A stretch of DNA of 64,000 bases from Serinicoccus hydrothermalis. Its GTDB lineage: Bacteria; Actinomycetota; Actinomycetes; Actinomycetales; Dermatophilaceae. The position numbers and the translations under genes were made by a program. Positions 22,820 through 38,771 of this stretch are shown here, one piece after another. Each line of letters begins with the position of its first letter. The stretch's first letter is position 1. A model generated the notes under the pieces. It worked only from the letters and a program-made list of their open reading frames with translations. It had not been told where the DNA came from and did not search any database. Location of the stretch: the NCBI RefSeq assembly GCF_001685415.1, contig NZ_CP014989.1, forward strand, positions 2,108,001 to 2,172,000, given 5' to 3'.

Positions 22820-22928
22820 TGACGATGGTGCGCGCCGGTGTTCCGGGCCGTACGGTGAGCCGTTGCGGGTCTGTCAGCGGTGGGTGCTGGACTTCTCGCA
22901 CGAGCCGACGACGGAGCCAGGAGGCGGT

Positions 22929-25586
22929 ATGACGCTGAGCGAGATGGACGTCTACGGACCGCCGGACCAGGGGGCGCCGAGCGGTCCCGAGGACCGCCTG
23001 CCGCCGCAGGACGTGGCGGCCGAGCGCAGCGCGCTGGGCTCGATGATGCTGTCCAAGGACGCCATCGCCGAGTGCTCGGAGATGGTCAAGGCGCACGACT
23101 TCTACCGGCCGGCGCACGAGAGCATCTTCGAGGCCTGCGTCGACCTCTACTCCCGGGGCGAGCCGGTCGACGCGATCACCGTCGGCGACGAGCTGACCAA
23201 GCGTGGCGACCTGCAGCGTGTGGGGGGCACGGCATACCTGCACCAGCTCATCGCCGAGGTGCCGACCGCCGCCAACGCCGCGTTCTACGCCGAGATCGTC
23301 GCCGAGCGCGCGGTGCTGCGGCGGCTGGTGGACGCCGGCACCCGGATCGTGCAGATCGGCTACCAGGGCGGCGACGTCGAGGACATCGTCAACGCCGCCC
23401 AGGCCGAGGTGTATGCCGTCGCCGACAAGCGTGGGGGCGAGGACTACCAGGCGCTCGGCATGCTCATCGAGCCCACGATGGACGAGATCGAGCACGCCGC
23501 CGGGTCCTCGGGGGAGATGACGGGGGTGCCGACCGGCTTCACCGAGCTGGACGAGCTGACCAACGGTCTGCACCCGGGGCAGATGGTGATCGTGGCCGCG
23601 AGGCCTGCTGTGGGCAAGTCGACCCTGGCCCTCGACGTGGCCCGTTCGGCGGCGATCAAGCACCAGATGTCCACGGTCGTCTTCTCTCTCGAGATGAGCC
23701 GTACCGAGATCACCATGCGACTGCTCTCGGCCGAGTCGGAGATCCCGCTGCAGAACATGCGCAAGGGCAACATGCGCGACCGCGACTGGACCCGGCTGGC
23801 CGAGACCCAGGGCCGGATCACCGACGCCCCGCTCTTCATCGACGACAGCCCCAACATGTCGCTCATGGAGATCCGCGCCAAGTGCCGGCGGCTCAAGCAG
23901 CGCAACAACCTCAAGCTCGTGATCATCGACTACCTGCAGCTCATGAGCTCGGGCAAGCGGGTCGAGTCGCGCCAGCAGGAGGTCGCGGAGTTCTCCCGAG
24001 CCCTCAAGCTGCTCGCCAAGGAGCTCGAGGTGCCGGTCATCGCCCTGTCGCAGCTCAACCGTGGTCCCGAGCAGCGGACGGACAAGAAGCCGCAGATGAG
24101 CGACCTGCGTGAGTCGGGTTGCCTCACCGCCGACACGCGCGTGCTGCGCGCCGACACGGGGGCCGAGGTCACGCTCGGTGAGCTGCACGCGGACGGGGCC
24201 ACCGACGTGCCGGTGTGGTCCCTCGACGAGTCCCTGCGGTATGTCCGGAGGCACCTCACCCACGTCTTCGCCACCGGGACGCGGCCGGTCTTCCGACTCA
24301 CCCTCACCTCGGGCAAGACCCTGACAGCGACGGAGAACCATCCCTTCCTGGCCTACGACGGCTGGAAGGCCCTCGGCGACCTGCACGCCGGCGACCGCAT
24401 CGCCGTGCCGCGCCACGTCCCTGCGCCGGAGCGGCATGAGCCCTGGGTCGACGACAACCACGTCGTGCTGCTCGCCCACATGCTGGGCGACGGATCGATG
24501 ATCAAGCGGCAACCATTGCGGTATGCCTCCATCGACGAGGAGAACCTTCGCGCGGTCACCGTGGCGGCCCTCTCGTTCGGCGTGGTCGCCGTCCGCGACG
24601 ACTATGCCGCCGCGAGGTGCACGACGTTGCGACTGCGGGCACCGTTCCGTCTGGCCCGGGGCCGGAGGAACCCCATCGCAGAGTGGCTGGACGAGCTGGG
24701 TGTCTTCGGGCTGCGCAGCCACGAGAAGTACGTGCCCGATGAGGTGTTCTCGCTCTCCAAGCGACAGATCTCCCTGTTCTTGCACCACCTCTGGTCGACG
24801 GACGGTTCCGTGACCGTCAACAAGCATCAGACAGGCGGGCGGATCTATTACGCCTCCACCTCTCGTCGCCTGATCGACGGCGTCAGCCGTCTCCTTCTGA
24901 GGTTCGGTATCTCTGGGCGGGTGGGGACCGTCCACAAGCAGGGCTATCGACCGGGCTACACCCTCGACATCTCCGGGTCAGACTCACAGCGACGCTTCCT
25001 CCAGGAGATCGGTGTCTTCGGTGGGCGCTCTGCCTCGGCAGCACAGCTCCTGGAGATCATCCGTGACCGACAGGCGAACACCAACGTCGACACCGTGCCC
25101 CGCGAGGTGTGGGGTGACGTGCGACGGGTCATGAGCGAGCAGGGCCTGACGACGCGCGAGTTCCAGGCCGCGATGGGGACGCGCTACTGCGGGTCCACGC
25201 TGTACAGGAGCGCGCCCTCGCGCGAGCGACTGGGCCGGATCGCGACCGTGCTGGGGAGTGCCGATCTGGAGCTCCATGCCGTGAACGACGTCTTCTGGGA
25301 CGAGGTGCGGTCGGTGGAGCTCGTGGGCGTGGAGGAGGTCTACGACGCCACCGTGCTCGGTGGCCACAACTTCGTCGCTAATGGGATCGCGGTCCACAAC
25401 TCGATCGAGCAGGATGCCGACGTCGTGATCCTGCTGCACCGCGAGTCGCTGTACGAGCGCGAGTCGCCTCGCGAGGGCGAGGCGGACGTCATCGTGGCCA
25501 AGCACAGGAACGGCCCGACCGACACGGTCGTCGTGGCTTTCCAGGGGCACTACAGCCGGTTCACCAACATGGCCAGCAACTTCTGA
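22929..25586 (+). CDS. dnaB: Replicative DNA helicase DnaB containing an intein
   Basis: An 885-residue precursor. The N-extein (1-397) has the DnaB N-terminal domain (PPQDVAAERSALGSMMLSKDAI) and the RecA-like motor with Walker A ARPAVGKST (~223-231), LVIIDYLQLM and the QLNRGPEQRTDKKPQMSDLRESG segment. An intein occupies residues 398-824. The C-extein (825-885) resumes SIEQDADVVILLHRE and ends NMASNF. Splicing would give a 458-residue helicase, the normal DnaB length. ATG at 22929 follows AGGAGG. It unwinds the chromosome ahead of the replisome. The stop is followed 13 bases later by a Tn7-like transposon end. Confidence 0.96.
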   Translation: MTLSEMDVYGPPDQGAPSGPEDRLPPQDVAAERSALGSMMLSKDAIAECSEMVKAHDFYRPAHESIFEACVDLYSRGEPVDAITVGDELTKRGDLQRVGGTAYLHQLIAEVPTAANAAFYAEIVAERAVLRRLVDAGTRIVQIGYQGGDVEDIVNAAQAEVYAVADKRGGEDYQALGMLIEPTMDEIEHAAGSSGEMTGVPTGFTELDELTNGLHPGQMVIVAARPAVGKSTLALDVARSAAIKHQMSTVVFSLEMSRTEITMRLLSAESEIPLQNMRKGNMRDRDWTRLAETQGRITDAPLFIDDSPNMSLMEIRAKCRRLKQRNNLKLVIIDYLQLMSSGKRVESRQQEVAEFSRALKLLAKELEVPVIALSQLNRGPEQRTDKKPQMSDLRESGCLTADTRVLRADTGAEVTLGELHADGATDVPVWSLDESLRYVRRHLTHVFATGTRPVFRLTLTSGKTLTATENHPFLAYDGWKALGDLHAGDRIAVPRHVPAPERHEPWVDDNHVVLLAHMLGDGSMIKRQPLRYASIDEENLRAVTVAALSFGVVAVRDDYAAARCTTLRLRAPFRLARGRRNPIAEWLDELGVFGLRSHEKYVPDEVFSLSKRQISLFLHHLWSTDGSVTVNKHQTGGRIYYASTSRRLIDGVSRLLLRFGISGRVGTVHKQGYRPGYTLDISGSDSQRRFLQEIGVFGGRSASAAQLLEIIRDRQANTNVDTVPREVWGDVRRVMSEQGLTTREFQAAMGTRYCGSTLYRSAPSRERLGRIATVLGSADLELHAVNDVFWDEVRSVELVGVEEVYDATVLGGHNFVANGIAVHNSIEQDADVVILLHRESLYERESPREGEADVIVAKHRNGPTDTVVVAFQGHYSRFTNMASNF
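24120..25400 (+). other. DnaB intein with LAGLIDADG-type homing endonuclease domain
   Basis: A 427-residue intein in frame within dnaB. The junctions are DLRESG/CLTADTR and GIAVHN/SIEQD: Cys1, a C-terminal His-Asn pair and Ser+1 are all present, so splicing looks competent. Block B is TLTATENHPFLAYDGWK. The middle holds two endonuclease-like motifs, LLAHMLGDGSMI and LFLHHLWSTDGSV, of the dodecapeptide type. The insertion site after RESG is the same as in the well-known cyanobacterial Ssp DnaB intein. The two acidic residues in LGDGS and STDGS are kept, so nuclease activity is possible. Confidence 0.92.
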
Positions 25587-25599
25587 CCAGCCGATCGAG

Positions 25600-25708
25600 T
25601 GTCGAGATGCAGCCAATCTTGCGCAGCGACCGTCCCTATGTAACATTCCCCACGGTTTGTCGAGATGCAGCCAATCTTGCACAGCGACCCTCCCTATGTA
25701 ACATTCCC
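25600..25708. repeat. Transposon left end: two 51-bp direct repeats
   Basis: Copies at 25600-25650 and 25658-25708 differ at only two positions by eye. Each starts TGTCGAGATGCAGCCAATCT and ends TAACATTCCC. They are 58 bases apart. Terminal TGT plus spaced repeats is what TnsB-binding ends of Tn7 relatives look like. The same 13-base core recurs at 42026, 42072 and, inverted, at 44711-44722. Confidence 0.85.
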
Positions 25709-25912
25709 ATTGCTTATCGATCTGACCCGAACTGATAACTTTCAGTTATAGGTGTTCGCCCTGCCAGCCGCGTCGCAGTAAGGCGCCGTGTCGAGAGGAC
25801 CGGCCCGGTGAAGGCCGGACCCTTCTCACTCGAGCAGACGATGCCAACCCCCAACTGCTGGGTGGGGATGTGCAAGTGCCGGTGCGAGGCCCGGCTGGGC
25901 AAGAATGTGGGC

Positions 25913-26671
25913 GTGAGGGACCCCGGGCACTTCGAGTCGGTCGCTGCGTCGTACCGGGCGGCCCGGCCTACCTATCCCAGCGTGCTCTACGAGATTCTGG
26001 ACGAGCAGGGCGCGATTGGACCAGGTCGTCGGGTCCTCGAGATCGGCGCCGGCACTGGTGAGGCCACCGGTGAGCTCGTCCGTCGCGGAAGCATGGTGGT
26101 CGCGGTCGAACCTGGGCTTGAGCTGGCCACCCGCCTGCGGCAGGCGTGCCCCGAAGTGAGCGTGCTGGTCTCCCGGGTCGAGGACGTGGACCTGGTCGGG
26201 CACCGGTTCGACTCGGTTGTGGCGGCTACGTCCATGCATTGGGTCGACCTGCCTACGGTGCTGCCCAGGCTCGGCCAGGCGTTGGAGCCAGGTGGGCTTC
26301 TTGCGGTGTGGCGGACGGTGTTCGGAGACCCGCGGATGTCGACGCCCTTTCGACGGGCCGTGGCTGAGATCGTCGCTCGTCGGGGCGAGACCATCCCACG
26401 GGCCGACCCGCTGGACCCGCGACCAACGGTGGCGGAACTAGAGGCGGGGAGGATGTTCCGACTGGTAGACACCTGGCAATGGCCGTGGCAGATCGACCTG
26501 GACGCGATCCAGATCCGTGCCCTTTTCACAACCTTCAGCGACTGGAAGGACCCGGCAGAACTCGACGCAGTCCAAGCCGCTGCCGTGGCTCAATCGGGGC
26601 CGGTGACCGAGCACTACGTCACGATCCTGCACCTGCTTCGCAGCACGACTGAAGAGACACTGCCTTCGTGA
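25913..26671 (+). CDS. Class I SAM-dependent methyltransferase
   Basis: A 252-residue protein. HFESVAASYRAARPTYP is the usual opening of this methyltransferase group, GRRVLEIGAGTGEATGEL is SAM motif I (~residues 39-56), VVAVEPGLELATRL motif II, and FDSVVAATSMHWVD a post-I acidic/aromatic block. The substrate is not predictable. The GTG at 25913 is chosen because homology begins there; upstream in-frame starts add a Cys-rich leader without family match. It is transposon cargo on the end nearest dnaB and converges with the exonuclease operon. Confidence 0.72.
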   Translation: MRDPGHFESVAASYRAARPTYPSVLYEILDEQGAIGPGRRVLEIGAGTGEATGELVRRGSMVVAVEPGLELATRLRQACPEVSVLVSRVEDVDLVGHRFDSVVAATSMHWVDLPTVLPRLGQALEPGGLLAVWRTVFGDPRMSTPFRRAVAEIVARRGETIPRADPLDPRPTVAELEAGRMFRLVDTWQWPWQIDLDAIQIRALFTTFSDWKDPAELDAVQAAAVAQSGPVTEHYVTILHLLRSTTEETLPS

Positions 26672-26739
26672 GCAACGGCGGCGTCCAGTGTGCCTTCGCA
26701 GCCGCCGCACCGAGATCGGGCTGCGGGGCGGCACCTGCA

Positions 26740-27478
26740 CTACTTACGTGGCTGACAGGTGCACCCGAACTGGATATCGCCCAGGCGCTCCGCGCTGATC
26801 TTCCCGCAGCGACGGCACTCCGTTCGGTGCGGGTCGTCCGGCAACGAGGGTTTGGTGAGCGGCCCGAGGTAGATGTAGCCGTTCTCCTCGGCGACCTCCT
26901 GCGCTCTCTCGTACGGGACTACCTCGACATTCGCGTATGGGCCCTGCAGGGCTCTCGCTGACTGTGCCCACTCCCGCCAGTAACAGGCACGGCATGTCGC
27001 CTCGTTCCACTCGTTCTTGTCGATGACGTAGACGAACCTGTAATGGGCGACGTTGCCGCACCGCAGGCAGCGAGTCAGCAGCCAGTCATCGGGCCGAGTG
27101 AAGCTTTCCAACGCTTCCAAGCCCCCTTGCTTCAGGATCGACGCGACGTGCGTATCGCAGTACGTCGGCTTGCTGCGCGTCTTGAAGGCAGCGGTCTGTG
27201 AGCAGCCATCTACTGAGCAGGCCTGATCGGTGAGTACTCGCTCACGCCGAAGGGGCCGGGGTGGCTTGGGAGGCGTGGGTACTGGTCGATCAGCCAGGGG
27301 GACCGAGCGAAGGCTGCCCAGCCTGGGTGGGGTGTGGGCTGCTGGCTTCGACGCGGTGGCGGACAGTAGGGCGGCAAGATCGGCATCAGCATCCAGCGGT
27401 AGGCCGTCGAGGCATCGCACGAAGTCGTCCTCGGTCATGACTTCGATGACCTGGCCCTTGTCCTGCAGCTCGAAGGCC
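26740..27478 (-). pseudogene. 3' half of frameshifted exonuclease-BRCT protein: BRCT tail plus zinc ribbons
   Basis: This frame continues the preceding gene after a one-base shift. It opens with ARKAFELQDKGQVIEVMTEDDFVRCL, the last helix and strand of the BRCT domain begun upstream. A Pro-rich linker follows, then zinc-binding clusters: CSVDGCSQTAAFKTRSKPTYCDTH, CLRCGNVAHYRF with CRACYW, and ECRRCGKISAERLG ending FGCTCQ. Such treble-clef/zinc-ribbon arrays bind nucleic acid. It has no start signal of its own, so translation needs a frameshift at GGCAAAGGCC or the gene is broken. A sequencing error is an alternative. Confidence 0.6.
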
Positions 27479-28324
27479 TTACGGGCCTTTGCCGGTGACG
27501 TTGCTGCCCGGCCGCAGAACGGCAGGGTTAATGTCCCCAACCACAAGGACGTTCGTCCGCTTGGTCGTGTTCTGATCCGGGGTAGCACCCACACGGGCGC
27601 ACTCCTGCCGGGCGACGTCCCGCGTCATGGACATCAGGGTTCCAGTGAAAACAACGACCCGTCCGTACAGGTACCCGCTCGGGTCCGCGTCGGTGTTGAC
27701 CTCGATGGGAGTGAAGTTCCGGCCGCCTGAGCCGATCGCGACGCTGCCGGTGTAGATGCCCCTGCTCATGCGCCCGATCGACATGCGTTGGCTCGCCGCA
27801 AGGTCCGCTAGGACGCCCACCCCGGACCGGCCAGCCAGCGCGTTCACAACGGCTACGACACCATGGGCGTCGGCGAGCGGATCGTGATGGTGTCCCATCT
27901 GTGCACCCAGCGACTCCACGACATATGGCAGCCGGTAGGACGGCAGGCTGAGGGCTCGTCGAGCCATCACCATCGTGCACAGGAACCGCATCTCGGGCCA
28001 TTCGATGTTGTCCACCGCGCAGGCGTAGCGGATGACGCCGATGTCGAAGCCGGCGTTGTGGGCGACAACGACGTCGTCATCGATGTAGTCCAAGATCGCA
28101 GGTAGCACGTGACGCCACCGGGGTGCATCCTCGACCATCGCGGAGTCGATGCCGTGGAGCATCGTGTTGAAACCGTCGAAGTAGTCGACCGGTTCGGGCG
28201 GTCGGATTAGCCAGCGGCGTTCGTCGACAGGCTTGCCGTCACGTACACGCACGAGCCCGACCGCACACGGTGACCCCCTGTACGAGTTCGCGGTCTCGAA
28301 GTCGATGGCTGTGAAGTTGAGCAT
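27479..28324 (-). CDS. DnaQ-like 3'-5' exonuclease with BRCT domain (5' part, frameshifted)
   Basis: A 281-residue reading frame. Exonuclease motifs: FTAIDFETAN (ExoI Asp-x-Glu), VVAHNAGFDIGVI (ExoII Asp) and HHDPLADAHGV (ExoIII, His-x4-Asp). From ~residue 215, LYGRVVVFTGTLMSMTRDVARQECARVGA followed by TNVLVVGDINPAVLRPG is a BRCT domain that stops abruptly at a TAA. One base fewer in the AAA of GGCAAAGGCC restores the rest of the BRCT and a zinc-ribbon tail (26740-27478). It would then be ~525 residues. It starts 6 bases after the preceding orf, in one minus-strand operon. Confidence 0.75.
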   Translation of the reverse strand: MLNFTAIDFETANSYRGSPCAVGLVRVRDGKPVDERRWLIRPPEPVDYFDGFNTMLHGIDSAMVEDAPRWRHVLPAILDYIDDDVVVAHNAGFDIGVIRYACAVDNIEWPEMRFLCTMVMARRALSLPSYRLPYVVESLGAQMGHHHDPLADAHGVVAVVNALAGRSGVGVLADLAASQRMSIGRMSRGIYTGSVAIGSGGRNFTPIEVNTDADPSGYLYGRVVVFTGTLMSMTRDVARQECARVGATPDQNTTKRTNVLVVGDINPAVLRPGSNVTGKGP

Positions 28325-28330
28325 GAACCC

Positions 28331-28927
28331 TCATCCCATGCCCTGGACGTAGAGGCGACCGGAGAAGACCTCTGGGAAGTCCGGCACCGTGGCCGCGTTC
28401 ATGGTCTCAGGCATGATCCACGGGGTCGTGCCGGTCGCTGGCTGCACGGTGCGACGGCGACGCTCTTCGTCGGTTGAAAGCCACGTGGTCCAGGACCGTC
28501 CGAAGTAGTTGGCCGTGGCGAGTGCCCTCAAACTGGGCGTATCTTCCGCTGGTACGAAGTCTTCAGGTGCAGGCCGTGGTGGGAACGTTGGCTCGACCAG
28601 GGTTCTGGAGCGTGTCGCACGTTTGTAGTCGGTAAGCGCGTCGAGAATCCGGGACTGCTGTGCTTCGACCTCATCGAGCAGCGCCGCGACGTCGGCCACA
28701 TCCAGCGCTTCTCCTTCGATGGGTAAACCGTCGAGGCTCGTGCCTTCGGTCTTCAGCACCACACAACGGTGGACGAGGGAGAGCAACTTCGTCATGGCGT
28801 CCGGATCGTTGATCGCCTCAATTACCACGGCGTTCACGTTGGTGGCTCGATCGCCATCCCTGCTCGTGTTCCAGACTGCGATCTGCTCAGCATCTGGCTG
28901 GCGGTCAACAATGGCAATCCCCCGCAT
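28331..28927 (-). CDS. Unknown protein in transposon cargo operon
   Basis: A 198-residue protein I do not recognise. ATG at 28927 follows GAAGGAG. Predicted to be soluble and acidic, with a helical middle (DVADVAALLDEVEAQQSRILDALTDY) and a Pro-rich segment. No signal peptide, membrane segment or metal motif. It lies between the zinc-finger gene and the exonuclease gene, six bases from the latter, so a joint function with the nuclease is likely. Confidence 0.6.
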   Translation of the reverse strand: MRGIAIVDRQPDAEQIAVWNTSRDGDRATNVNAVVIEAINDPDAMTKLLSLVHRCVVLKTEGTSLDGLPIEGEALDVADVAALLDEVEAQQSRILDALTDYKRATRSRTLVEPTFPPRPAPEDFVPAEDTPSLRALATANYFGRSWTTWLSTDEERRRRTVQPATGTTPWIMPETMNAATVPDFPEVFSGRLYVQGMG

Positions 28928-29026
28928 GGCTCTCCTTCGAGTCTCAACTGGGCTTGTCGCCGAGGTTAACAAGCGACTCCGACAGACCTGCTCGGGAGAC
29001 CCCGAGCTTCGGCGGACCAGGCATGG

Positions 29027-29446
29027 TCAAGACTCCCGGGGGTTGACCGGATAGCGCTCCAGAGCCCACCGGCGCTGACTCGCTGCCCGCTCCAGAGCGA
29101 CGCGATCCTTGCCCGACAAGTCGTCGCGGCGCAGCCAGACATCGAGTGTCTCGATCTCCCAGGAAAGACGGGCTCGCACTCTGTCGAACATCTGACGGCA
29201 CCTGCGCGAACAGAACCTGGTCGGTCTTCCGGCGGCGTATCCGGATGGCCAGGCGCACATCTGGTCGCACACGGGATTGAGGCAGCGGTGCTCGGTCTCG
29301 GGCTGCACGGTCTGGTCCAGCGCACGGACCACGTCGGCCGGCGATGGCTCCGGGACGGACTGCAGGTAGGTCTGCAAGGTTCGCTTCAACGCGCCACCTC
29401 GGCGCTCAGGATGCTGGTCAGGCATCGTGGTTGGTAGGTGCACCAT
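29027..29446 (-). CDS. FCS-type zinc-finger protein, transposon cargo
   Basis: A 139-residue protein with a zinc cluster HRCLNPVC(x)3C...TRFCSRRCRQMFDRVRARL at residues ~53-93. The FCS..C..MF ending resembles short CGNR/FCS zinc fingers. The rest is charged and helical. The start is secured by a perfect AAAGGAGGT (29450-29458 on the minus strand). First gene of the minus-strand cargo operon and divergent to the tns operon, with an inverted-repeat operator just upstream. It may be the operon's own regulator (inference). Confidence 0.6.
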   Translation of the reverse strand: MVHLPTTMPDQHPERRGGALKRTLQTYLQSVPEPSPADVVRALDQTVQPETEHRCLNPVCDQMCAWPSGYAAGRPTRFCSRRCRQMFDRVRARLSWEIETLDVWLRRDDLSGKDRVALERAASQRRWALERYPVNPRES

Positions 29447-29457
29447 GGTACCTCCTT

Positions 29458-29510
29458 TAGTCGTTAATCACGACTATATCCGCGCTTCTGTCAGCATTTA
29501 CGACTAGTCG
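29458..29510. promoter_or_regulatory. Inverted-repeat operator between cargo and tns operons
   Basis: TAGTCGT (29458-29464) and ACGACTA (29470-29476) form a perfect 7-bp inverted repeat around TAATC. A second site, CGACTAGTCG (29501-29510), is a 10-bp palindrome built from the same half-site. The local sequence is AT-rich for this genome. The pair sits just upstream of the zinc-finger gene. Confidence 0.7.
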
Positions 29511-29699
29511 CCCTGACCTGTGAAGATGCTAAGAAGTGGACGCGTCGCAGCAAGCAGACTCTCGGAGTCGAGGGGTTCACCGATTCGCGACAAGCCTTCG
29601 GCTGTGGCGCACGGACACGCATGCCTAGTCGGAAATGTTTGCAGAATGGGTGTCCCTGCGGTAACTTGCCCCTAGGTCCTCGCCTCGCTCCAGACGGAG

Positions 29700-29733
29700 T
29701 GAGGGCGCACCGGTTGCACCCGGTACGCCCTCA
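29700..29733 (+). other. Hairpin in the tns operon leader
   Basis: TGAGGGCG (29700-29707) pairs with CGCCCTCA (29726-29733), with a further inner CCGGT/ACCCGG pairing. It lies 40 bases before the tnsA start. It could be a terminator or attenuator that insulates or limits tns transcription. No poly-T follows. Confidence 0.5.
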
Positions 29734-29773
29734 GCGACAGACCCGAGAGACGCTGCGAAAGCGAGGATCCGTC

Positions 29774-30523
29774 ATGGGTCAGTCTAGAGATGTCGCACGT
29801 GCGCGGCCAGCCCGTGTGGTCTCCTGGACGTTCCGGTTCGACGCCGGCACGCAGGTGTGGGACTGGACGAAGGGCCCACCTGACGTGCGCGGGTTGCGCT
29901 CGATCCGCACCCCCCGGTCGACCGAGAAGAGCCGCCACATCCCTGTGCAGGCGCACTCCGTCACGCTGGAGGGTCCGATCCACCTGGAATCCGGGCTGGA
30001 GCACGACCTGGTGCGCGAACTCGACCGCGACCCCGACGTGGAGTGGATGGTGTCACAACCTGTGCGGCTCGGGCTGAGGACCGCAAGCGGCCGCTCCAGA
30101 ACGCACACGCCCGACCTCCTGGCACTGGGACGGGATGGTGGCGTGACCGTCTGGGACGTCCGTCCCGTCGACAAGCAGGACGAGAAGTTCCTGGAGAACA
30201 GGGACCTCACCGCCGCAGCCTGCGGCGAGGTCGGGTGGCACTACCGGGTCTACGGAGGCGGGTCGTCGGTGCGTCGCGACAACCTCCGCTGGCTGACGGC
30301 ATACCGGCGGCAGATGCCGTGGTACCCGAATGCCAAGGAAGAGCTCCTCGGGATCTGCCGGGAACCGCGGGCGACCGTCGGGGCGGTCCTCGACGCGGAC
30401 CACGGCGCAGGGCACCTGGTCAGCGCGATGTGGCACTACGCCTGGACCGGCGCCGTGGTCATAGACCTAAACCAACCGATAGACCGGTCGACACCCGTCC
30501 GTGAGCTCCAGGAGTCGCTGTGA
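29774..30523 (+). CDS. tnsA: TnsA-like transposon endonuclease subunit
   Basis: A 249-residue TnsA-family nuclease, which makes the 5' nicks in cut-and-paste Tn7 transposition. LESGLEHDLV supplies E72/E76, HTPDLLAL D114, and TVWDVRP the D128/R130 position where Tn7 TnsA has a Lys. The Lys-to-Arg change is worth testing. ATG at 29774 is preferred because GCGAGGA precedes it and homology begins there; an upstream ATG at 29621 would add a Cys-rich leader spanning a hairpin. Its stop overlaps the tnsB start (GTGA). Confidence 0.75.
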   Translation: MGQSRDVARARPARVVSWTFRFDAGTQVWDWTKGPPDVRGLRSIRTPRSTEKSRHIPVQAHSVTLEGPIHLESGLEHDLVRELDRDPDVEWMVSQPVRLGLRTASGRSRTHTPDLLALGRDGGVTVWDVRPVDKQDEKFLENRDLTAAACGEVGWHYRVYGGGSSVRRDNLRWLTAYRRQMPWYPNAKEELLGICREPRATVGAVLDADHGAGHLVSAMWHYAWTGAVVIDLNQPIDRSTPVRELQESL

Positions 30524-32721
30524 GCGGAGCGTCTGTGCCCATCACCGTCGGGGCCAGGATCCTGACAGCGGACGGCTACGCGGTGGTCACGGACCTCGAA
30601 CGCCACGGGGTCCGTCTGTGCTTCTCCACCGGCGAAGACCGGTCCGTGACCTACTCACAGCTCCAGGCGCGGGCGGTAGGTCAGGACGGGGCACAGGCAC
30701 TCCACTCCTCCCTCTTCCCGTGGTGGACCCAGCTCGAGGAAGCAGTGCGCCTGGAAGCCCTTTTCAAGCAGGAGTGCGTCCTGGAAGCACGGACCGGGTT
30801 CCGGTACGGACTGCGCGAGCTCGCCCAGCCCGGTGAGCCCTTCCACCCGTTCGGTGACGACTTCGGTCTGAGCCTGGCGGCGCGGTATCGCGCGATGAGC
30901 AAGGTCATCACCTTCGAGCGCTCCGTCGACCGAGCGGTGATGCGACGGGTCTACGACGGGGAGCTGGCAGGCCACCGGATCGCAGCGCGCACGATGCAAC
31001 GCTGGGACAGCCTCTGGGTCAGCGGCGGCCTGCGGGGGCTCGTCGACGGCCGCGCCATCAAGGGTAGGCAGGCCTTCGACATCATCGACGCCGACTTCCG
31101 ACGGATCGCCCTGGAGAAGTTCGCGGAGTACGACGGGTCGAAGAGTCGGCCCAACCTGCAGGAGATCGAGCGTCAGGTGCGGGTGGCCCTCAAGAACGAA
31201 GGCGTCACCGATCCGTACCTTCCGGACCGGATCACCCAGGAGTTCCTCAGTCATCACTGGCGGGCCACCGGATCCTCGGTGCGCGCCCAGCGCTCCAAGT
31301 CCTTGCGCCGGGTGGCCGGTCACCAGAGCTATCCGGCCCAGCACCCCTCCGAGCTCGCCACCGACCTGACCATGGCCAACAACTTCGTACTCGACCCCCT
31401 TCGAGAGCGGGCCATCAACGTCGAGGTCGGGGTCATCCACTCGATCGCCACCCGTGTCATCCACGGCATACGAGTGTTCCCGCGAGGAGCGCGCGGCATC
31501 GACGTCGGGCTCCTGGTCTACGACGCAATGCGGCAGTTCGCCATGGTCGTCGACGGCACCACCATCGACGACTTCCGCTGGTGCGGCATACCCGAATCAC
31601 TCGACCTCGACGGCAACCCTGTCCACATCGGGAGACGACCCACCGTCAAGCGTGACCTGACGATCCAGGGTGTTCACTACCTGCCCGGTGTGGCCCCCAC
31701 CTCGCTGCGCAGCGACCATGGCAGCATCTTCGTCGGCGAGCACTTCCGAGCGCTGCTCGACCAGTTCGGCATCGAACTCCGACTGTCGCGTGGCAAGAAG
31801 CCGACGGACAACCCGCACTCCGAGCGGAAGATGGAGGACCTGGAGCGTGCCTACCAGCAGGTGCCCGGGTACAAGGGTCGCTCCATCCATCAGCGTGGCC
31901 GATTCATCGGCATCGAGGCGGACGAGCCTCTACTGACCGCCGAAGAGCTCGAGCGGCACTTCCGGCGATGGGTCGCCGTGGACTACCACCGGATGCCCCA
32001 CGACGGTCTCGCCCTCCCCGGAGCCCCCGGCATCCGCCTGACCCCCCTGGAGATGCACGACGCTCTTGCAGATGCCACGGGCCGCATCCTCGTCCCACAG
32101 CACCCCGATCTGCTGTACCAGTTCCTGCCGACGATCTGGCTGACACCCGGGCATGCTGGCGTCGAGCACAAGAACCTGACCTATGACGCACCCGTCCTCG
32201 GGGACTTCCGCTCGGTCAGGAAGGGGACGTTCCGCGAACGGGACTCCGCCATCCCCTTCCACACCGACCCGCGAGACCTGACGCGCCTCTGGTTCCGCCA
32301 CCCGGAGACCGACCGGATCCACGAGATCCCGTGGAAGGCGCGGCACCTCATCCACGCACCCCTCGGCGATGTCGTCCGCGACCGCGCGCTGGCCCGGATC
32401 AAGGAACGGGGCGGCAACCGGTCCATCAACAAGACCCGCATCATGCGTCAGATCATCGACGAGATCGGCGAGCTCACCACTGCCCCCGCCACGGACGAAT
32501 GGCGCAACAAGCTGGCGGCCGCCCAACTGCGCTGGGAACAGTCTCAGCGAGATCACGCAGACGTCGCCGAGGCTCATCGCGTCCTCGAGGCCGGCGGGTC
32601 GAACGTGCTGCGGCTTCCGGCGGCCCCCCGGGGCGACCCGGTCGACCCGGTCGATGCCACGGGGGCGGACCTGCTGGGGCCGGATGACGAGCCGTGGCCC
32701 GACTACAGGCAGATGGTCTGA
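30520..32721 (+). CDS. tnsB: TnsB-like DDE transposase
   Basis: A 733-residue transposase that would cut and join the 3' ends. It has an N-terminal helical DNA-binding region, then a retroviral-integrase core with D282 (ATDLTMAN), D399 (RSDHGSIF) and E435 (NPHSERKMED). The D399-E435 gap is the classic 35 residues. A Mu-type beta-barrel follows, and the Pro/Asp-rich tail (PRGDPVDPVDATGADLLGP) is the usual TnsC-contact region. GTG overlaps the tnsA stop, so subunits are made in step. Its likely binding sites are the TGTCGAGATGCAG repeats at both ends. Confidence 0.87.
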   Translation: MSGASVPITVGARILTADGYAVVTDLERHGVRLCFSTGEDRSVTYSQLQARAVGQDGAQALHSSLFPWWTQLEEAVRLEALFKQECVLEARTGFRYGLRELAQPGEPFHPFGDDFGLSLAARYRAMSKVITFERSVDRAVMRRVYDGELAGHRIAARTMQRWDSLWVSGGLRGLVDGRAIKGRQAFDIIDADFRRIALEKFAEYDGSKSRPNLQEIERQVRVALKNEGVTDPYLPDRITQEFLSHHWRATGSSVRAQRSKSLRRVAGHQSYPAQHPSELATDLTMANNFVLDPLRERAINVEVGVIHSIATRVIHGIRVFPRGARGIDVGLLVYDAMRQFAMVVDGTTIDDFRWCGIPESLDLDGNPVHIGRRPTVKRDLTIQGVHYLPGVAPTSLRSDHGSIFVGEHFRALLDQFGIELRLSRGKKPTDNPHSERKMEDLERAYQQVPGYKGRSIHQRGRFIGIEADEPLLTAEELERHFRRWVAVDYHRMPHDGLALPGAPGIRLTPLEMHDALADATGRILVPQHPDLLYQFLPTIWLTPGHAGVEHKNLTYDAPVLGDFRSVRKGTFRERDSAIPFHTDPRDLTRLWFRHPETDRIHEIPWKARHLIHAPLGDVVRDRALARIKERGGNRSINKTRIMRQIIDEIGELTTAPATDEWRNKLAAAQLRWEQSQRDHADVAEAHRVLEAGGSNVLRLPAAPRGDPVDPVDATGADLLGPDDEPWPDYRQMV

Positions 32722-32722
32722 C

Positions 32723-33772
32723 GTGGATGCCCACGACTGGCACCGGCAGGCGATGGCCACGCCACCGGCGTGGCCCGATCCGGTCTCCTCCACCGACTAC
32801 GACAAGATGTCCTGTCCGTCGCAGACTGACTACTTCCTTCGGCTGGCCACGGCCATGAACGCACAGGTCTTGTTCTCCGAGCCGATGACAGCGGCCCAGG
32901 GATGCCTCGACGAAGTCGTGGAGACGAACCGACTCAGGCCACCGGGAGCCATGCAGATGGTGGCGCTGACCGCCCCGTTCTCCGCCGGCAAGTCCACTCT
33001 GATCAAGCAGTGGGGTTTCCGCCTCCACCGTGAGGTGCTCGGCGAACAGGCCGCGCGGGACCGTCCCACCTGGTCGCCCGAAGGCGGGGTGACCGCCGAC
33101 TGGTGCCCGGTCGTCTACGTCACCCTGATGGCCTCCAGCTCGATCAAGGAGGTCAACGCACTCATCTTGCTCTACCTCGGCTACCCGCCCGAAGGGCTGG
33201 TCCGGACCACCACCACCCGCGTCCTGCACGCTCTGCGGATGCACGGCGTCCGCGTCGTCATCCTCGACGACGCCAACATGCTGCGCTCCACGAATGCCCA
33301 GGGGCGCGCGGTGCTGGACTACATCAAGTTCCTCAACACCGAGCTCGGCGAACGGTGCAACGGCACCGTCGTCCTCGTCGGGGCTCATCTGGACAGCACC
33401 ACCATCCTGGACGACCCTCAGATCCGGGCCCGCCTGACCACGATGAAGGTCGGCGCCTTCCAGATCACCACCGTCGACGAACGGGCCGCCTGGCAGAAGC
33501 TGCTCCAGACCGCCGAGGAGCGTCCCCTCGCGCACCTGCCCGACGCCACGCCCGGACTGTTCGTGAGTGGCCTGGCCCACCACATGTGGCAGCGCACCCA
33601 AGGCTTCGTCGGTGAGGTCGCCAAACTCGTCGCTGGCTCGGTCCTCGACGCCGTCCGCGACCGGCGCTCCATCATCACCCGGGACCACCTCGACGCCGTC
33701 ACTCTCAGCGAACGGTCCATCGACGGTCAGATCGAGGGCGCTGCCATGGAGAACAGGAACAAGCAGAAGTGA
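32723..33772 (+). CDS. tnsC: TnsC/TniB-like AAA+ transposition regulator
   Basis: A 349-residue AAA+ ATPase. Walker A is APFSAGKST (~84-92), a known variant; Walker B is RVVILDDANML (~176-186). The TniB-family context includes an Asn-Thr sensor region and a C-terminal winged part (THDHL-like ITRDHLDAVTLSERSIDG). It carries the target signal from TniQ to TnsAB. GTG at 32723 begins one base after the tnsB stop. No other in-frame start is as close. Confidence 0.82.
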   Translation: MDAHDWHRQAMATPPAWPDPVSSTDYDKMSCPSQTDYFLRLATAMNAQVLFSEPMTAAQGCLDEVVETNRLRPPGAMQMVALTAPFSAGKSTLIKQWGFRLHREVLGEQAARDRPTWSPEGGVTADWCPVVYVTLMASSSIKEVNALILLYLGYPPEGLVRTTTTRVLHALRMHGVRVVILDDANMLRSTNAQGRAVLDYIKFLNTELGERCNGTVVLVGAHLDSTTILDDPQIRARLTTMKVGAFQITTVDERAAWQKLLQTAEERPLAHLPDATPGLFVSGLAHHMWQRTQGFVGEVAKLVAGSVLDAVRDRRSIITRDHLDAVTLSERSIDGQIEGAAMENRNKQK

Positions 33773-35181
33773 GGGTCGCGCCGCTGCCGGTCCGCCCCAC
33801 GCCACGTCCTGGGGAGCCTCTGTCCTCGTATGCGGCGCGGCTGGCTGACGCCAACGGTCTGGCCCGTGGCAGGGTCCTTCCGGCGTGGCGGCAGGACATC
33901 GACGTCCCGCCTACGGAGCTGTCCACCGTCGGCGCCCTGGCCGCGCTGGACCCTGCCGTGGCGACGCGGTTGACGATGGACCGGTACCCGCTGGCGATCC
34001 GTGGCCACGGACCTCAACGTCGTCACGGGTGGCGCCTGCACCACTCTGTGGCCTGGGTCTGCCCGTCCTGCACGGTGTCGACCGGCCACCGGGACCTGTT
34101 CTGGCAGACCGCGCTGGTGCCGGTCTGCCAGCGGTGCTCGTGCTACCTGATCCACGCTGGCTCCCCGCACGTCGCGGTGCCTGCGCACCCATGGGTCCTC
34201 GAGGTGGTCCAGGTCTTGGTCGAGTTAGCTGAGGCGTCGGTCGAGGAACCGGGTGCCAGGCGCGTGCTGTACCGGCGGCGACGCCGCTGCCAACAATTGG
34301 CCGCCACTATCGACGGCGGCTCCTTGGGCGTGGGGAGCGACCTGCCCCCGTTGGACCTGGTCGCGGCACGGACATGGGGGGCCTACCCCTGCCCGGACCC
34401 GACCACCGTCGCTGCCCTGCTGGTCATCACGGGCCCACGCCGTTCCCGACAGAGCAAGCCGGCTCACCTGCGCTGCCAGCAGTCGTCCACCTTCACGGGC
34501 GCTGACCGCGACCGGCTCGACTGGTTCCTCACCCGGCTGCGTCATCACGTGGATCACGACGACCTGCGCCCAGATCACGTCCCGAGCATGCTCCCGCCAC
34601 CCCAAGGCGACGATGCGCGGAAACCCGGGGCATGGCTGTCGCTGACCCGTGCCGCCACCGCCATGCACATGCTCATCGCCGACGCATCCGGCCACAGCGA
34701 GACGCCGCAGGAGGCGATGACCGCGCTCGGGGTCCCAGGCATCCCGTCCAGCGCGCTCATCGACGGCATCGACACCGGCGAGGGCCTGCGCGAGCAGGAC
34801 GGCGACCTGCTCACCACCGCGCTGCAGCAGCTGCTCGCCGACGGGCTCGTGGACTACCAGCGCCGCCGCGACATCCTGCGACCCGCCACCCGGCTACCCA
34901 GCACCACCAGCCAGCGACTGCCTGCCACGGTGACCTCGGCACCCACCTTCAGCAGACTGGCGCTGGCATGGATCTGGATCCGGTTCACCCATGGACCCAT
35001 GCGCTCCTGCCCCGGGCCCGACATCCCTGATCGGGACGTGCACGCCTTCGACCGCCGCATCGACCCCGAGACGCGGCTGCTGCTGCACGAGACCGGACAG
35101 CAGCTCCTCGCCGATGCGGACCTGCTGACCATCCCCACCACCCAGGCCACCTGGGCGGGCATCACCCGGCGGTACGGATGA
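33769..35181 (+). CDS. tniQ: TniQ-family target-selection protein 1
   Basis: A 470-residue TniQ protein. RPGEPLSSYAARLADANGL (13-31) is the family opening, and C98/C101 with C120/C123 form the zinc site (CPSC, CQRC). The long helical C-terminal half is less conserved. TniQ/TnsD proteins bind the target site and recruit TnsC. GTG overlaps the tnsC stop (GTGA). The length fits a TnsD-like, att-site-recognising protein better than the ~300-residue TniQ of Tn5053. Confidence 0.8.
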   Translation: MRVAPLPVRPTPRPGEPLSSYAARLADANGLARGRVLPAWRQDIDVPPTELSTVGALAALDPAVATRLTMDRYPLAIRGHGPQRRHGWRLHHSVAWVCPSCTVSTGHRDLFWQTALVPVCQRCSCYLIHAGSPHVAVPAHPWVLEVVQVLVELAEASVEEPGARRVLYRRRRRCQQLAATIDGGSLGVGSDLPPLDLVAARTWGAYPCPDPTTVAALLVITGPRRSRQSKPAHLRCQQSSTFTGADRDRLDWFLTRLRHHVDHDDLRPDHVPSMLPPPQGDDARKPGAWLSLTRAATAMHMLIADASGHSETPQEAMTALGVPGIPSSALIDGIDTGEGLREQDGDLLTTALQQLLADGLVDYQRRRDILRPATRLPSTTSQRLPATVTSAPTFSRLALAWIWIRFTHGPMRSCPGPDIPDRDVHAFDRRIDPETRLLLHETGQQLLADADLLTIPTTQATWAGITRRYG

Positions 35182-35558
35182 ACACGCCAGAGCAGGACCA
35201 CGAGAACCTGCGGGACCGGGCGGCGCGGATCCTGCAGGCGATGGACGCCACCCCCATCCCGGCCATGGACGTCAACTACTACGCCCACTACCTCGAGGAG
35301 CTACGGCTGCTCGTCGACGAGTTCCTGGCCGGGGCACCCGACCCATCGTTGACCGGGACCCGGGTGTGGCTGATGTGGGACTGCGCCGACCTCATCGGCT
35401 CTTACACCACCGAGTCCGCCGCACGCGCAGAGCACGCCGACCTACAGGACCAGCTGCGCACCGACTACGGGGAGGGTGCCCAACCCCTGGACAGCCTGAC
35501 CATCACGACCGCGTACGTATCAACCAGTTGCCCGGGCCAGGCAAGGACCGACCAGTGA
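35178..35558 (+). CDS. Unknown small protein inside the tns operon
   Basis: A 126-residue acidic protein, not recognised. Helical N-terminal half (DYYAHYLEELRLLVDEFL-like text) and an aromatic TGTRVWLMWDCADLIGSY stretch. ATG overlaps the tniQ1 stop and its own stop overlaps whiB, so it is locked into the operon. No membrane or metal motif apart from two isolated Cys. Confidence 0.65.
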   Translation: MNTPEQDHENLRDRAARILQAMDATPIPAMDVNYYAHYLEELRLLVDEFLAGAPDPSLTGTRVWLMWDCADLIGSYTTESAARAEHADLQDQLRTDYGEGAQPLDSLTITTAYVSTSCPGQARTDQ

Positions 35559-35869
35559 GAGGAATCAGCCGTGAGGTCCTCGCCCGCGACGCCGCCTGGA
35601 GTCTTGCGGACGGGAAGTGCAAAGGCATGGCGTCCCGTTGGGGGACCTGGGAGCGGATCTACCTGGACGCCGAGGCGGTCGGCGACCGCGCCCGGGCCCT
35701 GATCGCACCGGCCGAGGTCTGCGCCGGATGTCCGATCGTTGCCGAGTGCGCCGATCTGGCGGAGCTGTCCGGTTACACCGGTATCGCCGGCGGACGCGGT
35801 TACCGCAATGGCCGTGAGGATACCTACCGGATCCGGGACCCGATCAAGGCACGACGGAGGACGGCGTGA
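35555..35869 (+). CDS. WhiB-family iron-sulfur protein in the tns operon
   Basis: A 104-residue Wbl protein. Four Cys ligands for a 4Fe-4S cluster are present: C22 (GKCKGM), then C56-x2-C59-x5-C65 (VCAGCPIVAEC). The normal G(V/I)WGG turn is replaced by GIAGG (76-80), with a basic tail RIRDPIKARRRTA for DNA contact. Wbl proteins sense redox or NO and steer sigma-factor-bound polymerase. GTG overlaps the preceding stop, and its stop overlaps tniQ2, so it is an integral operon member. The loss of the conserved Trp may weaken SigA contact. Confidence 0.78.
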   Translation: MRGISREVLARDAAWSLADGKCKGMASRWGTWERIYLDAEAVGDRARALIAPAEVCAGCPIVAECADLAELSGYTGIAGGRGYRNGREDTYRIRDPIKARRRTA

Positions 35870-37527
35870 CCGTTGCGGTCGCGCTGCCCGTCACCGTCGC
35901 ACCCCGTGACGGGGAATCGATCGAGTCCTGGCTCGAGCACCTCGCAGACGCCAACGGCCTGACCACGGCCGCGCTCCTGACCCACCTCCGCCGGCGAGGT
36001 GTAGGCACCCGGTACCTGACCCTCGCGCCGGCGCCGGCCACGGTCCGCGTGCTCGCCGACCTTGCCCGCGTCACCGAACAGGACGTTCACGCCACCACCC
36101 TGGCCGCCTACGACGGGACCGCCCTCAACCTGGCCGGTCTCGACCCCGACGACCGGTACTCCTACCGTCAGGTCGCCGCCCGCGGCTGGACACCCGCCCA
36201 CGGCACCCAGGCCTGCCCGACCTGCCTGGCCGAAACCGGGACCTGGCGCAGCGCGTGGCGACTCCTCATCGTCACCACCTGTCTTCGCCACCGCAGCCTG
36301 CTCGTCGCCGAGTGCCCCTCCTGCCGGCGGCCGTTCCGGGACCAACGCGGCTCGCACCTGCGCAGGGTGGGTGGGGCCACCGCTTGCGGAAACCCGCTCG
36401 GCGCCGGCCCTACCAGACAGTGCCAGCACGACCTCACCACCATCCCCACCGCAACGGTCGATGACGCCGTCCTGGCGCTTCAGACCCGCGTCGAGACCGC
36501 CCTCACCGACCACGCCGTGACGGTCCTCGGGGAGCCGATGGACGCGGCGGCGTACCTGGATGACCTGCGGCACCTCGCCACGCTCCTGCTGCACCTGGCA
36601 GGCCAACCCGACGCACACAGGATTGGCACCTGGCCCTCCGGCCTCACCAGGGAAGCAGCCCGACGCACCGGGGAGCGAGGACCACGGTGGGGCCTACGCC
36701 CACCGGACCCTCCGGGGTTGCGCGCAGCGGCGCTGGCTACCGCTGATGCGGTCCTTTCCGCACCCGACCTCGACACCGCCGCGTCCGCCTTGACGCCGTG
36801 GACCGAGCTCACCCCGACTACCGACGACGGCCCACTCGGCTGGTTGGCCGACCGCACTGTCATGACCCCGACGCTGACGCGGCTCGTGCTGTCCGCTCGG
36901 TCGCGTCACCGACGCCTGTCCCACCAGCTCGACACCCACCCACCGACCGGAGCGGCGATGAAGATCAATCACAAGGCTGTCCCGCAGGTCATCCCCCACC
37001 AGCAGTACCTCGACCACCTCACCGGTGCGTCTGACAGCGGCGCAGAGACGGTCCGGCTCTTCGCCTCCCTATCTCTGGCCAGGATGCACCCGGACATCAA
37101 GACCTGGGCGGCCGCCGCGCAAGCCCTCGGCATGCCCGGACCCGTGGGCACCCGCTGCGCACGCGCCTGTTCAGGCACGATGCTGATCGCGGCCGAGGAG
37201 TGGCAGGCCCGGATCCGGGCGGCCATCCAGGACGTGCCCCGCTACGACTACCGCGCCGCCGAAGCCAAGACCGAGCACCGCCGACACATGAGCCGCTGGT
37301 TCGAGGAATGGGCCCGCAAGTACCGACCCGGCACCCACCACACCAGTCTGAGTTACGGGCTGACGTGGCAGTGGATCCACGTCGCCCACGCCCACCTCGA
37401 CCTCTCACCCGCCTGGGACGGCACCACACCCACCGCCAAGGACCGCGCCCTCTACCGCCAGTTCGAGACCTCCCTCGACGGCCAGCAGCAGAGCGGGCTC
37501 GCTTCCGCCCTGCACAAGCGCGCGTGA
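35866..37527 (+). CDS. TniQ-family target-selection protein 2
   Basis: A 553-residue second TniQ. RDGESIESWLEHLADANGL (14-32) is the family opening. Zinc ligands C117/C120, C139/H142 and C150/C153 follow, with a further Cys pair near 174-190. It is longer than tniQ1 and only weakly similar outside the N-terminal domain. By analogy with Tn7 relatives holding two TniQ proteins, one may direct insertion at a fixed chromosomal site and the other to mobile DNA. GTG overlaps the whiB stop. Confidence 0.77.
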   Translation: MTVAVALPVTVAPRDGESIESWLEHLADANGLTTAALLTHLRRRGVGTRYLTLAPAPATVRVLADLARVTEQDVHATTLAAYDGTALNLAGLDPDDRYSYRQVAARGWTPAHGTQACPTCLAETGTWRSAWRLLIVTTCLRHRSLLVAECPSCRRPFRDQRGSHLRRVGGATACGNPLGAGPTRQCQHDLTTIPTATVDDAVLALQTRVETALTDHAVTVLGEPMDAAAYLDDLRHLATLLLHLAGQPDAHRIGTWPSGLTREAARRTGERGPRWGLRPPDPPGLRAAALATADAVLSAPDLDTAASALTPWTELTPTTDDGPLGWLADRTVMTPTLTRLVLSARSRHRRLSHQLDTHPPTGAAMKINHKAVPQVIPHQQYLDHLTGASDSGAETVRLFASLSLARMHPDIKTWAAAAQALGMPGPVGTRCARACSGTMLIAAEEWQARIRAAIQDVPRYDYRAAEAKTEHRRHMSRWFEEWARKYRPGTHHTSLSYGLTWQWIHVAHAHLDLSPAWDGTTPTAKDRALYRQFETSLDGQQQSGLASALHKRA

Positions 37528-37787
37528 ACCGTGTCCGTGGCATCAGTTGCCCTAGCTTCAAGCTCGAGTAGGCAGTAACGGGATCGGACCCGACACATGC
37601 GTCGACAGCGAGGGTCGACAAGAAGTGTGAGGAGGGCCGACCGGGGCGCCGCCCAGCGGACTGACAGGTGTCGGCCCCTGATGAGATGGTGGCGCCATCG
37701 ACGGAACGACCCGCCGGAGCGCGCGCTGCGGATGACAGGATGGGTTGTCTGCGAAGATCGGTGGAGCGGCGAGAAGGGATGGACTAT

Positions 37788-38771
37788 ATGGCGCGCGGCG
37801 ACCTGCTCCTGGCGCTGGTCCAGTCTGGTGCTGGCGGTGACGAGCTCGCCTTCCGGCGTGCCGCTGAGGCTCTCATCGCCGAAGAGAACGCAAAGAAGCA
37901 CGGTATCCTCGCCTCCCAGCTCGCGGACGCTCTGACCCGGCGGAGGAACCCCGGATCCTCGGTCTCGCCACTCTCACGGTCCCAAGAATCAGCCGGCCTG
38001 TTCTACGAGTCCGAGCCAACTAGTCGGATGACCGACCTCGTGCTGCCCTCTGCCGTTCGCCAAGCAACGACCGACCTTATCGAGGAGCACCACCGCCGAG
38101 ACCTTCTGCGCAGCCACGGTGTCGAACCACGCCACCGCATCCTACTGGAAGGCCCGCCCGGCAGCGGCAAGACCACCCTCGCTGAGGCCGTTGCCACTGA
38201 GATCGCAGTCCCGCTGCTAACCGTGCGCTACGAGGCACTGATCGGCTCCTACCTCGGTGAGACTGCCAGCCGTCTGGACGTACTGTTTTCCGCCGTCCGG
38301 ATCCGGCCCTGCGTGCTCTTCTTCGACGAGTTCGACGCCGTCGCCAAGGAGCGCGGTGACACCCACGAGACCGGTGAGATCAAGCGCGTCGTCAGTTCTC
38401 TGCTGGTGCAGATCGACCGGCTCCCCAGCCACGTCATCGTCATCGCTGCCACGAACCACGCCGAGCTCCTCGACCGCGCGGTCTGGCGACGGATGCAGAT
38501 CCGGCTCTCCCTTCCGAAGGCCACACGCGAAGGCAAGATCGAACTGCTCCGGTCCTGGTCGGCCCGCACCGGGGTAGAGTTCGGCAAGTCCGCACGCAGC
38601 ATCGCCGACCGTCTGCGCGATGTCAGTTACGCAGAGCTCGAAGACTTCGCAGAGGACGTCCAACGCCGCCAGATCCTTGACGGATTCGACGCTGACCCAG
38701 GTGCAGTGACTGAGCGCCTCTTGAAGATCTGGGCAAACCGAGCCAAGCCGGCGCTCGATCTCGATGGCTGA
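37788..38771 (+). CDS. AAA+ ATPase paired with subtilisin-like protease
   Basis: A 327-residue AAA+ protein. The N-terminal ~85 residues are helical and unassigned. Walker A GPPGSGKT is at 122-129, Walker B VLFFDEFDA at 176-184, sensor-1 ATNHAELLDRAVWRR at 221-235 with arginine-finger candidates R234/R235, and a C-terminal lid follows. The group resembles FtsH/Vps4-type unfoldases without a protease domain. ATG at 37788 is preferred over 37779 because AGAAGGGA then has proper spacing. Its 3' end overlaps the protease gene by 8 bases, so the two act together. Confidence 0.8.
   Translation: MARGDLLLALVQSGAGGDELAFRRAAEALIAEENAKKHGILASQLADALTRRRNPGSSVSPLSRSQESAGLFYESEPTSRMTDLVLPSAVRQATTDLIEEHHRRDLLRSHGVEPRHRILLEGPPGSGKTTLAEAVATEIAVPLLTVRYEALIGSYLGETASRLDVLFSAVRIRPCVLFFDEFDAVAKERGDTHETGEIKRVVSSLLVQIDRLPSHVIVIAATNHAELLDRAVWRRMQIRLSLPKATREGKIELLRSWSARTGVEFGKSARSIADRLRDVSYAELEDFAEDVQRRQILDGFDADPGAVTERLLKIWANRAKPALDLDG

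Follow-up and report, generated by a model that had tools for sequence, protein, structure and literature searches.

The transposon Tn7 has TGT/ACA ends and inserts in one orientation. At its attachment site in E. coli, attTn7, the sequence bound by TnsD extends from +23 to +58, counted from the centre of the target duplication, in the last 36 bp of glmS (PMC2918618), and other Tn7-like elements use tRNA genes, parE, yhiN or comM as sites (PMC11406308). The Benler 2021 survey describes an Actinobacteria-dominated clade of Tn7-like elements, none of them experimentally characterized (PMC8649781). We consider here a stretch of 64,000 nucleotides from Serinicoccus hydrothermalis (contig NZ_CP014989.1, positions 2,108,001 to 2,172,000), hereafter the window, in which a Tn7-like element that we name D lies downstream of dnaB, the gene of the replicative helicase. 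We observe at this locus and its relatives a characteristic gene content, defined ends, target duplications, repeated use of the same site and a spacing tied to the codons of DnaB; reasoning from sequence, we think it very probable that this is a genuine actinobacterial Tn7-like lineage that has the 3′ end of dnaB as its attachment site, a site that looks not to have been described before. The initial annotation of the window had put dnaB forward as a possible new site of this kind, and the proposal is now supported by 16 loci where the transposase gene is contiguous with dnaB and by the codon-tied spacing. The features that carry the argument are as follows.

22863 to 25586, plus strand: dnaB, replicative helicase with an intein (NCBIfam PRK07773.1, 1281 bits; spacing analysis)
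25600 to 25657, plus strand: left terminus of X, the outer element (TGTCGAGATGC...CACGGTT), an end that recurs at 82440
25653 to 25657, plus strand: CGGTT, 5-bp target duplication of element D, its second copy directly past 82435
25658 to 64000 and most likely on to 82435, beyond the window, plus strand: tns-bearing Tn7-like element D (inverted ends, identical flanks)
29771 to 30523, plus strand: tnsA, start approximate (NF033179 TnsA_like_Actin; Pfam Tn7_TnsA-like_N below cut-off)
30520 to 32721, plus strand: tnsB, DDE transposase (D282-D399-E435)
32723 to 33772, plus strand: tnsC, a TniB ATPase (Pfam PF05621)
33769 to 35181, plus strand: tniQ1, 470 amino acids (PF06527, 39.4 bits)
35178 to 35558, plus strand: orf126, without family match, kept in close relatives
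35555 to 35869, plus strand: small WhiB-like protein of the tns operon (PF02467, 17.0 bits, below the cut-off of 23.6)
35866 to 37527, plus strand: tniQ2, TnsD-like, 553 amino acids (PF06527, 72.5 bits; alignment)

TnsA, a TnsB of the D-D-35-E type, TnsC and two TniQ proteins had been announced beyond dnaB, their genes pointing away from it, and family cut-offs and the invariant catalytic triad uphold each of these identifications. TnsA reaches 144 bits for a cut-off of 110 and TnsC 51.7 bits for a cut-off of 22.4, both TniQ proteins exceed the cut-off of 27, and the three catalytic residues of TnsB are invariant in six homologues; the Pfam rve match of TnsB lies below its cut-off. Compared with solved chains, profiles of TnsB and TniQ find TnsB and TniQ structures at E 1e-7 and 4e-7, respectively, and TnsC, compared as a single sequence, finds no match. 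The genes follow one another, all on the strand of dnaB, in the order tnsA, tnsB, tnsC, tniQ1, orf126, the weakly WhiB-like gene and tniQ2. At five junctions out of six, neighbouring genes overlap by four bases (GTGA or ATGA), the gap between tnsB and tnsC being of one base, so that the whole looks like a single operon. It leaves no room for a Cas effector; in a PADLOC run on eight proteins between 25808 and 41836, the one CRISPR-related match was to a DEDDh exonuclease model, and no Cas effector appeared. The WhiB-like gene, below cut-off as it is, overlaps tniQ2 and is retained in close relatives.

D is like Tn7 in having TnsA, TnsB, TnsC and a TniQ-domain selector, in its 5-bp duplication and in being inserted at a set distance past an essential gene with a conserved end (PMC2918618). 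The TGT/ACA ends and the single orientation are shared as well. It differs from Tn7 in its site, the neighbouring gene being dnaB and not glmS, and in its operon, which codes for two TniQ proteins and, by a weak match, for a WhiB-like one. It belongs to the Tn7-like elements and seems to function as Tn7 does, without being Tn7 itself. As in elements with other sites, a TniQ/TnsD protein or a partner would choose the conserved gene (PMC11406308); with the clade of the 2021 survey D has in common the host phylum, the Tn7-like genes and a defence cargo, a likeness that concerns these traits only (PMC8649781).

The limits of the element deserve some detail. The dnaB stop is the TGA at 25584-25586 and the end motif TGTCGAGATGCAG begins, after 13 bases, at 25600, just where the initial annotation had located a terminal TGT. 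A 51-base end repeat is present in two copies, at 25600 and 25658. Allowing up to three mismatches, the motif GTCGAGATGCAGCCAATCTTG has four matches in the window for 0.00 expected (100 shuffles), and its matches in the whole genome, six of six, fall inside the dnaB island: this end motif is not due to chance. The annotation had also taken the first TGT as the end of the tns element, which was thought to stop at 37527, and on both counts it has to be corrected. The TGT at 25658 has its mate at 82435 (G000:C1:2190435; G, C and L numbers are our handles for genomes, contigs and loci), with CGGTT on both flanks, over 56,778 bp; because of these identical flanks and inverted ends, the tns-bearing element D is most likely 25658-82435, that is, 56.8 kb. 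Three other far ends were discarded: 37527, since it is 82435 that pairs with 25658, 42007, which lacks a matching flank, and 44722, which pairs with 42072 through CAAGA. Some 4 kb of other genes separate the end from tnsA. The end at 25600 is probably that of another element, X: D sits 58 bp inside it, and the same 58-base end recurs right after D, at window coordinate 82440 (G000:C1:2190440). A pairing of 25600 with 86066 was set aside on account of its unlike flanks, TCGAG on the left and CCAGT on the right. A block of 3.54 kb past this point matches, with 99.86% identity, the outer portion of a Serinicoccus element at dnaB. The rest of X (82440-86066, L008:440-4066) encodes a disulphide reductase and a protein of the cadmium-resistance-transporter family; the intein of dnaB (NCBIfam intein_Nterm, residues 420-496) lies upstream of the target end.

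If dnaB is a site, it should be found next to related elements. [Within 396 genomes of the order,] a search with TnsB (E <=1e-30) gave 15 matches, namely the window's own, five close and nine distant ones. Four of the five close loci lie on a contig with dnaB upstream of them, and the fifth stops at a contig edge; among the distant relatives (25-31% identity, L059-L067) dnaB was present in none of the nine over the 16-20 kb fetched, and our claim is therefore confined to the closer lineage. A scan of GTDB genomes with a TnsB alignment gave 16 loci, three of them on the same contigs as matches from the order, with dnaB upstream in nine; the hosts of L085, L087, L092 and L093, three genomes (L093 being placed through its accession), have on the dnaB contig an end 0-9 bp past the stop that is not joined to tnsB, and the hosts of L086, L089 and L090 have no transposon end past dnaB. 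Four further loci came in through TniQ (G400, G407, G415 and G436). Altogether tnsB is contiguous with dnaB at 16 distinct loci, with TnsB about 37-100% identical: the window, G386, G277 (Knoellia), G094, G116 (Paraoerskovia), Serinicoccus, Mobilicoccus, Phycicoccus, two Mycobacterium, Promicromonospora, a metagenome-assembled genome (MAG) of Pimelobacter, G407, G400, G436 and G415. Many hosts are drafts or MAGs, and in Janibacter limosus, M. barrassiae and a Propionibacterium MAG either dnaB or tnsB is at the edge of its contig; the Paraoerskovia contig stops 1.4 kb past tnsB, TnsB is split across two frames in G400, and G400 and G436 belong to one genus, their aligned TniQ2 sequences being identical. 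The initial annotation had named as support insertions that recur a short way past dnaB with one type of TniQ, and this is largely what is found, with TniQ2 at 14 of the 16 loci and a spacing that is mostly, not always, fixed. Among 72,556 plasmid records, 97 match TnsB; among the 15 matches listed, the close lineage accounts for one (43%), the other 14 having identities of 27.8-30.4%.

Contiguity of this kind might simply result from descent or chance, as one old insertion or as a hot spot where dnaB is not recognized. Most hosts studied belong to one family, the intergenic DNA after dnaB is harmless to insert into, and many ends are remnants, all of which fits such a view. We nevertheless hold it to be highly improbable: TnsB identity goes down to 37% and the duplications differ, hosts are found in other families and orders, the end motif is missing from much of the family, and the spacing is tied to the DnaB codons. 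These last two points can be seen in a sample chosen independently of the element. A strict pattern joining the dnaB end to the transposon end had retrieved only 5 of the 396 genomes of the order, because it allowed no mismatch and fixed part of the dnaB codons as well as the spacing, and was replaced by a sample of the family: 59 genomes, 54 of them with a dnaB match. With at most one mismatch and within 200 bp of the dnaB stop, TGTCGAGATG is present in 24 of these 54, where chance would provide about 0.3 (our own estimate, with equal base use). The 30 others lack the end motif and their dnaB 3′ flanks are unrelated by eye.

Measured from the F codon of HYSRF, the end lies at 29-33 bp in 14 of the 24 family ends: insertions thus recur with a set spacing relative to a single conserved gene. 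Taking all 71 loci examined, that is, the 54 of the family and 17 added for their element or host, an end with up to two mismatches is found at 39, and at 22 of these the distance is 29-33 bp; redistributing the stop-to-end distances at random over these 39 loci gives a mean count of 12.8 at 29-33, and none of 10,000 shuffles reaches 22. For the 30 loci with a spacing of up to 48 bp, the slope of the stop-to-end distance on the F-to-stop distance is -0.96. The cut at 48 bp by itself favours a negative slope, and the shuffles therefore kept it: their mean slope is -0.14, with 22 of 10,000 as steep. As the loci are related, neither shuffle figure is a clean probability. The F-codon spacing is kept where dnaB is longer by some codons (Knoellia, Phycicoccus, Janibacter, G411, G404) and also where it is shorter (Paraoerskovia, the Pimelobacter MAG), the spacing from stop to end ranging from 0 to 14 across dnaB genes with shifted stops. 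Since the spacing follows the codons and not the stop, the selector seems to read coding sequence, and not the stop or the intergenic DNA. The target would thus be the 3′ end of dnaB that encodes HYSRFTNMASNF. Laid on a canonical dnaB site (spacing 30), the Tn7 ruler gives a footprint from 5 bases past the F codon to 30 before it, the codons around AFQGHYSRF; in the 22 canonical sites, the F codon and an ATGGC seven to eleven bases on are nearly invariant, for which coding constraint could suffice.

Six genomes have elements flanked by exact 5-bp duplications. In three of them the element has the first end after dnaB: G386, with ACGGA three times, two elements in tandem and a spacing of 29; G094, with ACGCC and a spacing of 40; Serinicoccus, with ACCAG and a spacing of 89, a match made by eye across two stretches. 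Nested elements are flanked by CCTGT in Mobilicoccus, AATGG in G415, and CGGTT and CAAGA in the window, and in G407 the flanks differ by one base (GTTGG, GTTGA). At 25658 and 82435 as in the relatives, these are the inverted TGT...ACA ends and 5-bp duplications of Tn7-like elements. Used sites are hit again, hence tandem and nested stacks, the tns element of the window being inside the end of an earlier one. One may ask whether what the selector recognizes is the ends of elements already in place, dnaB being merely the first landing place. The tns-side ends do lie inside the end of another element in the window (58 bp), Mobilicoccus (33 bp), G415 (69 bp) and G386 (197 bp), and in G094 a further end begins about 30 bp beyond the right end. 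Against this, the spacing of the first end follows the DnaB codons, and in G397 and G404 the end 13-mer occurs once per genome, at typical spacing after dnaB, both being lone ends; we give the idea little probability, and retain dnaB itself as what is most probably read. In 20 chosen genomes, the 13-mer TGTCGAGATGCAG occupies 42 places in the 14 with a dnaB end, 33 of them in the dnaB island, and none in the six without one. Off the dnaB contig, it was noted three times in G277 (C3, C17), four times in G408 (C59, C71, C73, C85) and twice in G411.

We may now ask which protein does the reading. Of the 16 contiguous loci, 14 have a TniQ2 homologue; in 13 of these it is whole (that of G386 spanning L054 and L072), and in G407 two frames share it. 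The loci where it was not seen are Paraoerskovia, whose contig stops first, and the Pimelobacter MAG. Members of the TniQ2 family are 34-76% identical to the protein of the window. When 396 genomes of the phylum were scanned with a TniQ2 alignment, six matched, of which only G000, the genome of the window, and G522 do so over the whole length, both downstream of dnaB (in G522 at about 9 kb, with one TAA inside the match); in the four others, only the N-terminal TniQ part matches, away from dnaB. In the Micrococcus element, which is off dnaB, TniQ2 is cut to 321 amino acids, and the genome of a Marmoricola MAG gave no TniQ2 match. From this distribution, TniQ2 is likely to be the reader of dnaB. 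It is unlikely that TniQ1 takes this role instead, or that both act together. The two proteins share one operon and are both kept in close relatives, which would suit a joint function; against it, at dnaB G094 and G415 have a TniQ2 homologue with no TniQ1 match in the stretch searched, and the two mycobacterial loci have a whole-length TniQ2 homologue and no full-length match of the TniQ1 type, a second, different TniQ being present there. TniQ1 would perhaps serve a second target pathway.

Several observations weigh against the reading that dnaB is the site and TniQ2 its reader. In the family sample, 10 of the 24 ends are off 29-33 bp (37 in the window, 40-76 in the others), and Serinicoccus is at 89; later indels, nested insertions or loose targeting may account for this tail of 37-89 bp. 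Of the three duplications at first ends, only that of G386 is at typical spacing, the inner end on the tns side of G386 lacks a matching mate, and the outer element X is without identical flanks. A TniQ search of 24 genomes, 19 of them with an end at dnaB, found a TniQ in 10 of the 19 (8 near dnaB) and none in nine, so that many ends must be remnants or those of elements devoid of tns genes. The Pimelobacter MAG has only a TnsB fragment (residues 233-510), with no TnsC or TniQ in the 9.5 kb beyond it. Three relatives with TnsB at 43-58% (Micrococcus, M. porcinum and the Marmoricola MAG) have no end after dnaB; M. porcinum has, at the edge of another contig, a sequence that matches TniQ2 at 502 of its 550 positions, and another relative with full-length TniQ2 is on the Gordonia plasmid pGKT2. 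The TniQ2 profile finds the solved TnsD chain of Tn7 at only E 0.12. Full-length or nearly full-length TniQ2 away from dnaB is what one would expect if a second pathway, perhaps through TniQ1, takes the element to plasmids. Elements scattered at random positions, which would have spoken against an attachment site, were not seen, the three relatives without a dnaB-adjacent end and the plasmid copy being what points that way. The plasmid locus (L146, Gordonia sp. KTR9) has TnsA, a TnsB broken by an IS3 element, TnsC and full-length TniQ2, and pGKT2 is typed as mobilizable.

Taking from Tn7 the order of the protein steps, we may propose how the element would proceed. The TnsD-like TniQ2 would bind the DNA for the conserved C-terminus of DnaB (around AFQGHYSRF-NMA) and recruit TnsC there; TnsA and TnsB would then excise the element and join it with its tnsA side facing dnaB, typically 29-33 bp past the last base of the F codon, with a 5-bp duplication as the result and dnaB left intact. 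Small tns-less elements that share these ends (42072-44722, X) would probably be mobilized in trans by the tns element. The roles of TniQ2 as reader and of TniQ1 in reaching plasmids, as well as mobilization in trans, are what we infer from these comparisons.

The initial annotation did not count dnaB among the known Tn7-like sites, and the literature searched agrees with it. The main texts of PMC10293859, PMC8649781 and PMC11406308 do not mention dnaB; in the titles, abstract beginnings and term counts of the matches listed, a scope with supplements and most subscription papers outside it, no paper names dnaB as a Tn7-like site. In PMC10991518, DnaB is a negative control for TnsC folds, and the mentions of dnaB found in PMC7765201 and PMC8895235 concern unrelated matters. 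An essential and universally present gene would thus join the short list of protein-read landing sites of Tn7-like elements, and it would do so for elements described as uncharacterized in the 2021 survey. This would account for the islands of variable content found downstream of dnaB across many actinobacteria in the sampled family, provide hosts that have few tools with a candidate safe site and a means of integration, and make the TniQ2 family, with its apparently shared target at 34-76% identity, good material on how TnsD proteins read DNA. A broader picture, to which we give only tentative credit, is that dnaB might be the actinobacterial counterpart of attTn7, with a dedicated selector, and a stacking platform where autonomous and tns-less elements sharing their ends bring in genes of phage defence, metal resistance and respiration, the WhiB-like protein possibly tying transposition to the redox state.

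Beyond tniQ2, three further features were delimited.

37668 to 41268, plus strand: IetA (AAA ATPase) and IetS (S8 peptidase), an anti-phage pair carried as cargo (PADLOC)
41976 to 42007, minus strand: decayed sequence resembling a right end (CTGCATCTCCACA; motif scan)
42072 to 44722, plus strand: nested small element B, 2651 bp, without tns genes (CAAGA on both flanks)

The IetA/IetS pair directly follows tniQ2. PADLOC gives 457 bits to IetA and 804 bits to IetS, NCBIfam model matches being far below their cut-offs, and the Phycicoccus locus L088 has matches at 40% and 25% identity. The ends of B, at 42072 and 44722, are paired by their identical flanks, and a disulphide-reductase gene lies between them (43183-44532). 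Further on inside D, at 45097-54567, are pieces of an ISL3-type transposase and two Mu-transpos_C_2 transposase genes, which we take to be IS21-like; the cargo from about 50 to 82 kb, named by eye from translations, comprises cytochrome bd, cytochrome c biogenesis and metal transporters.

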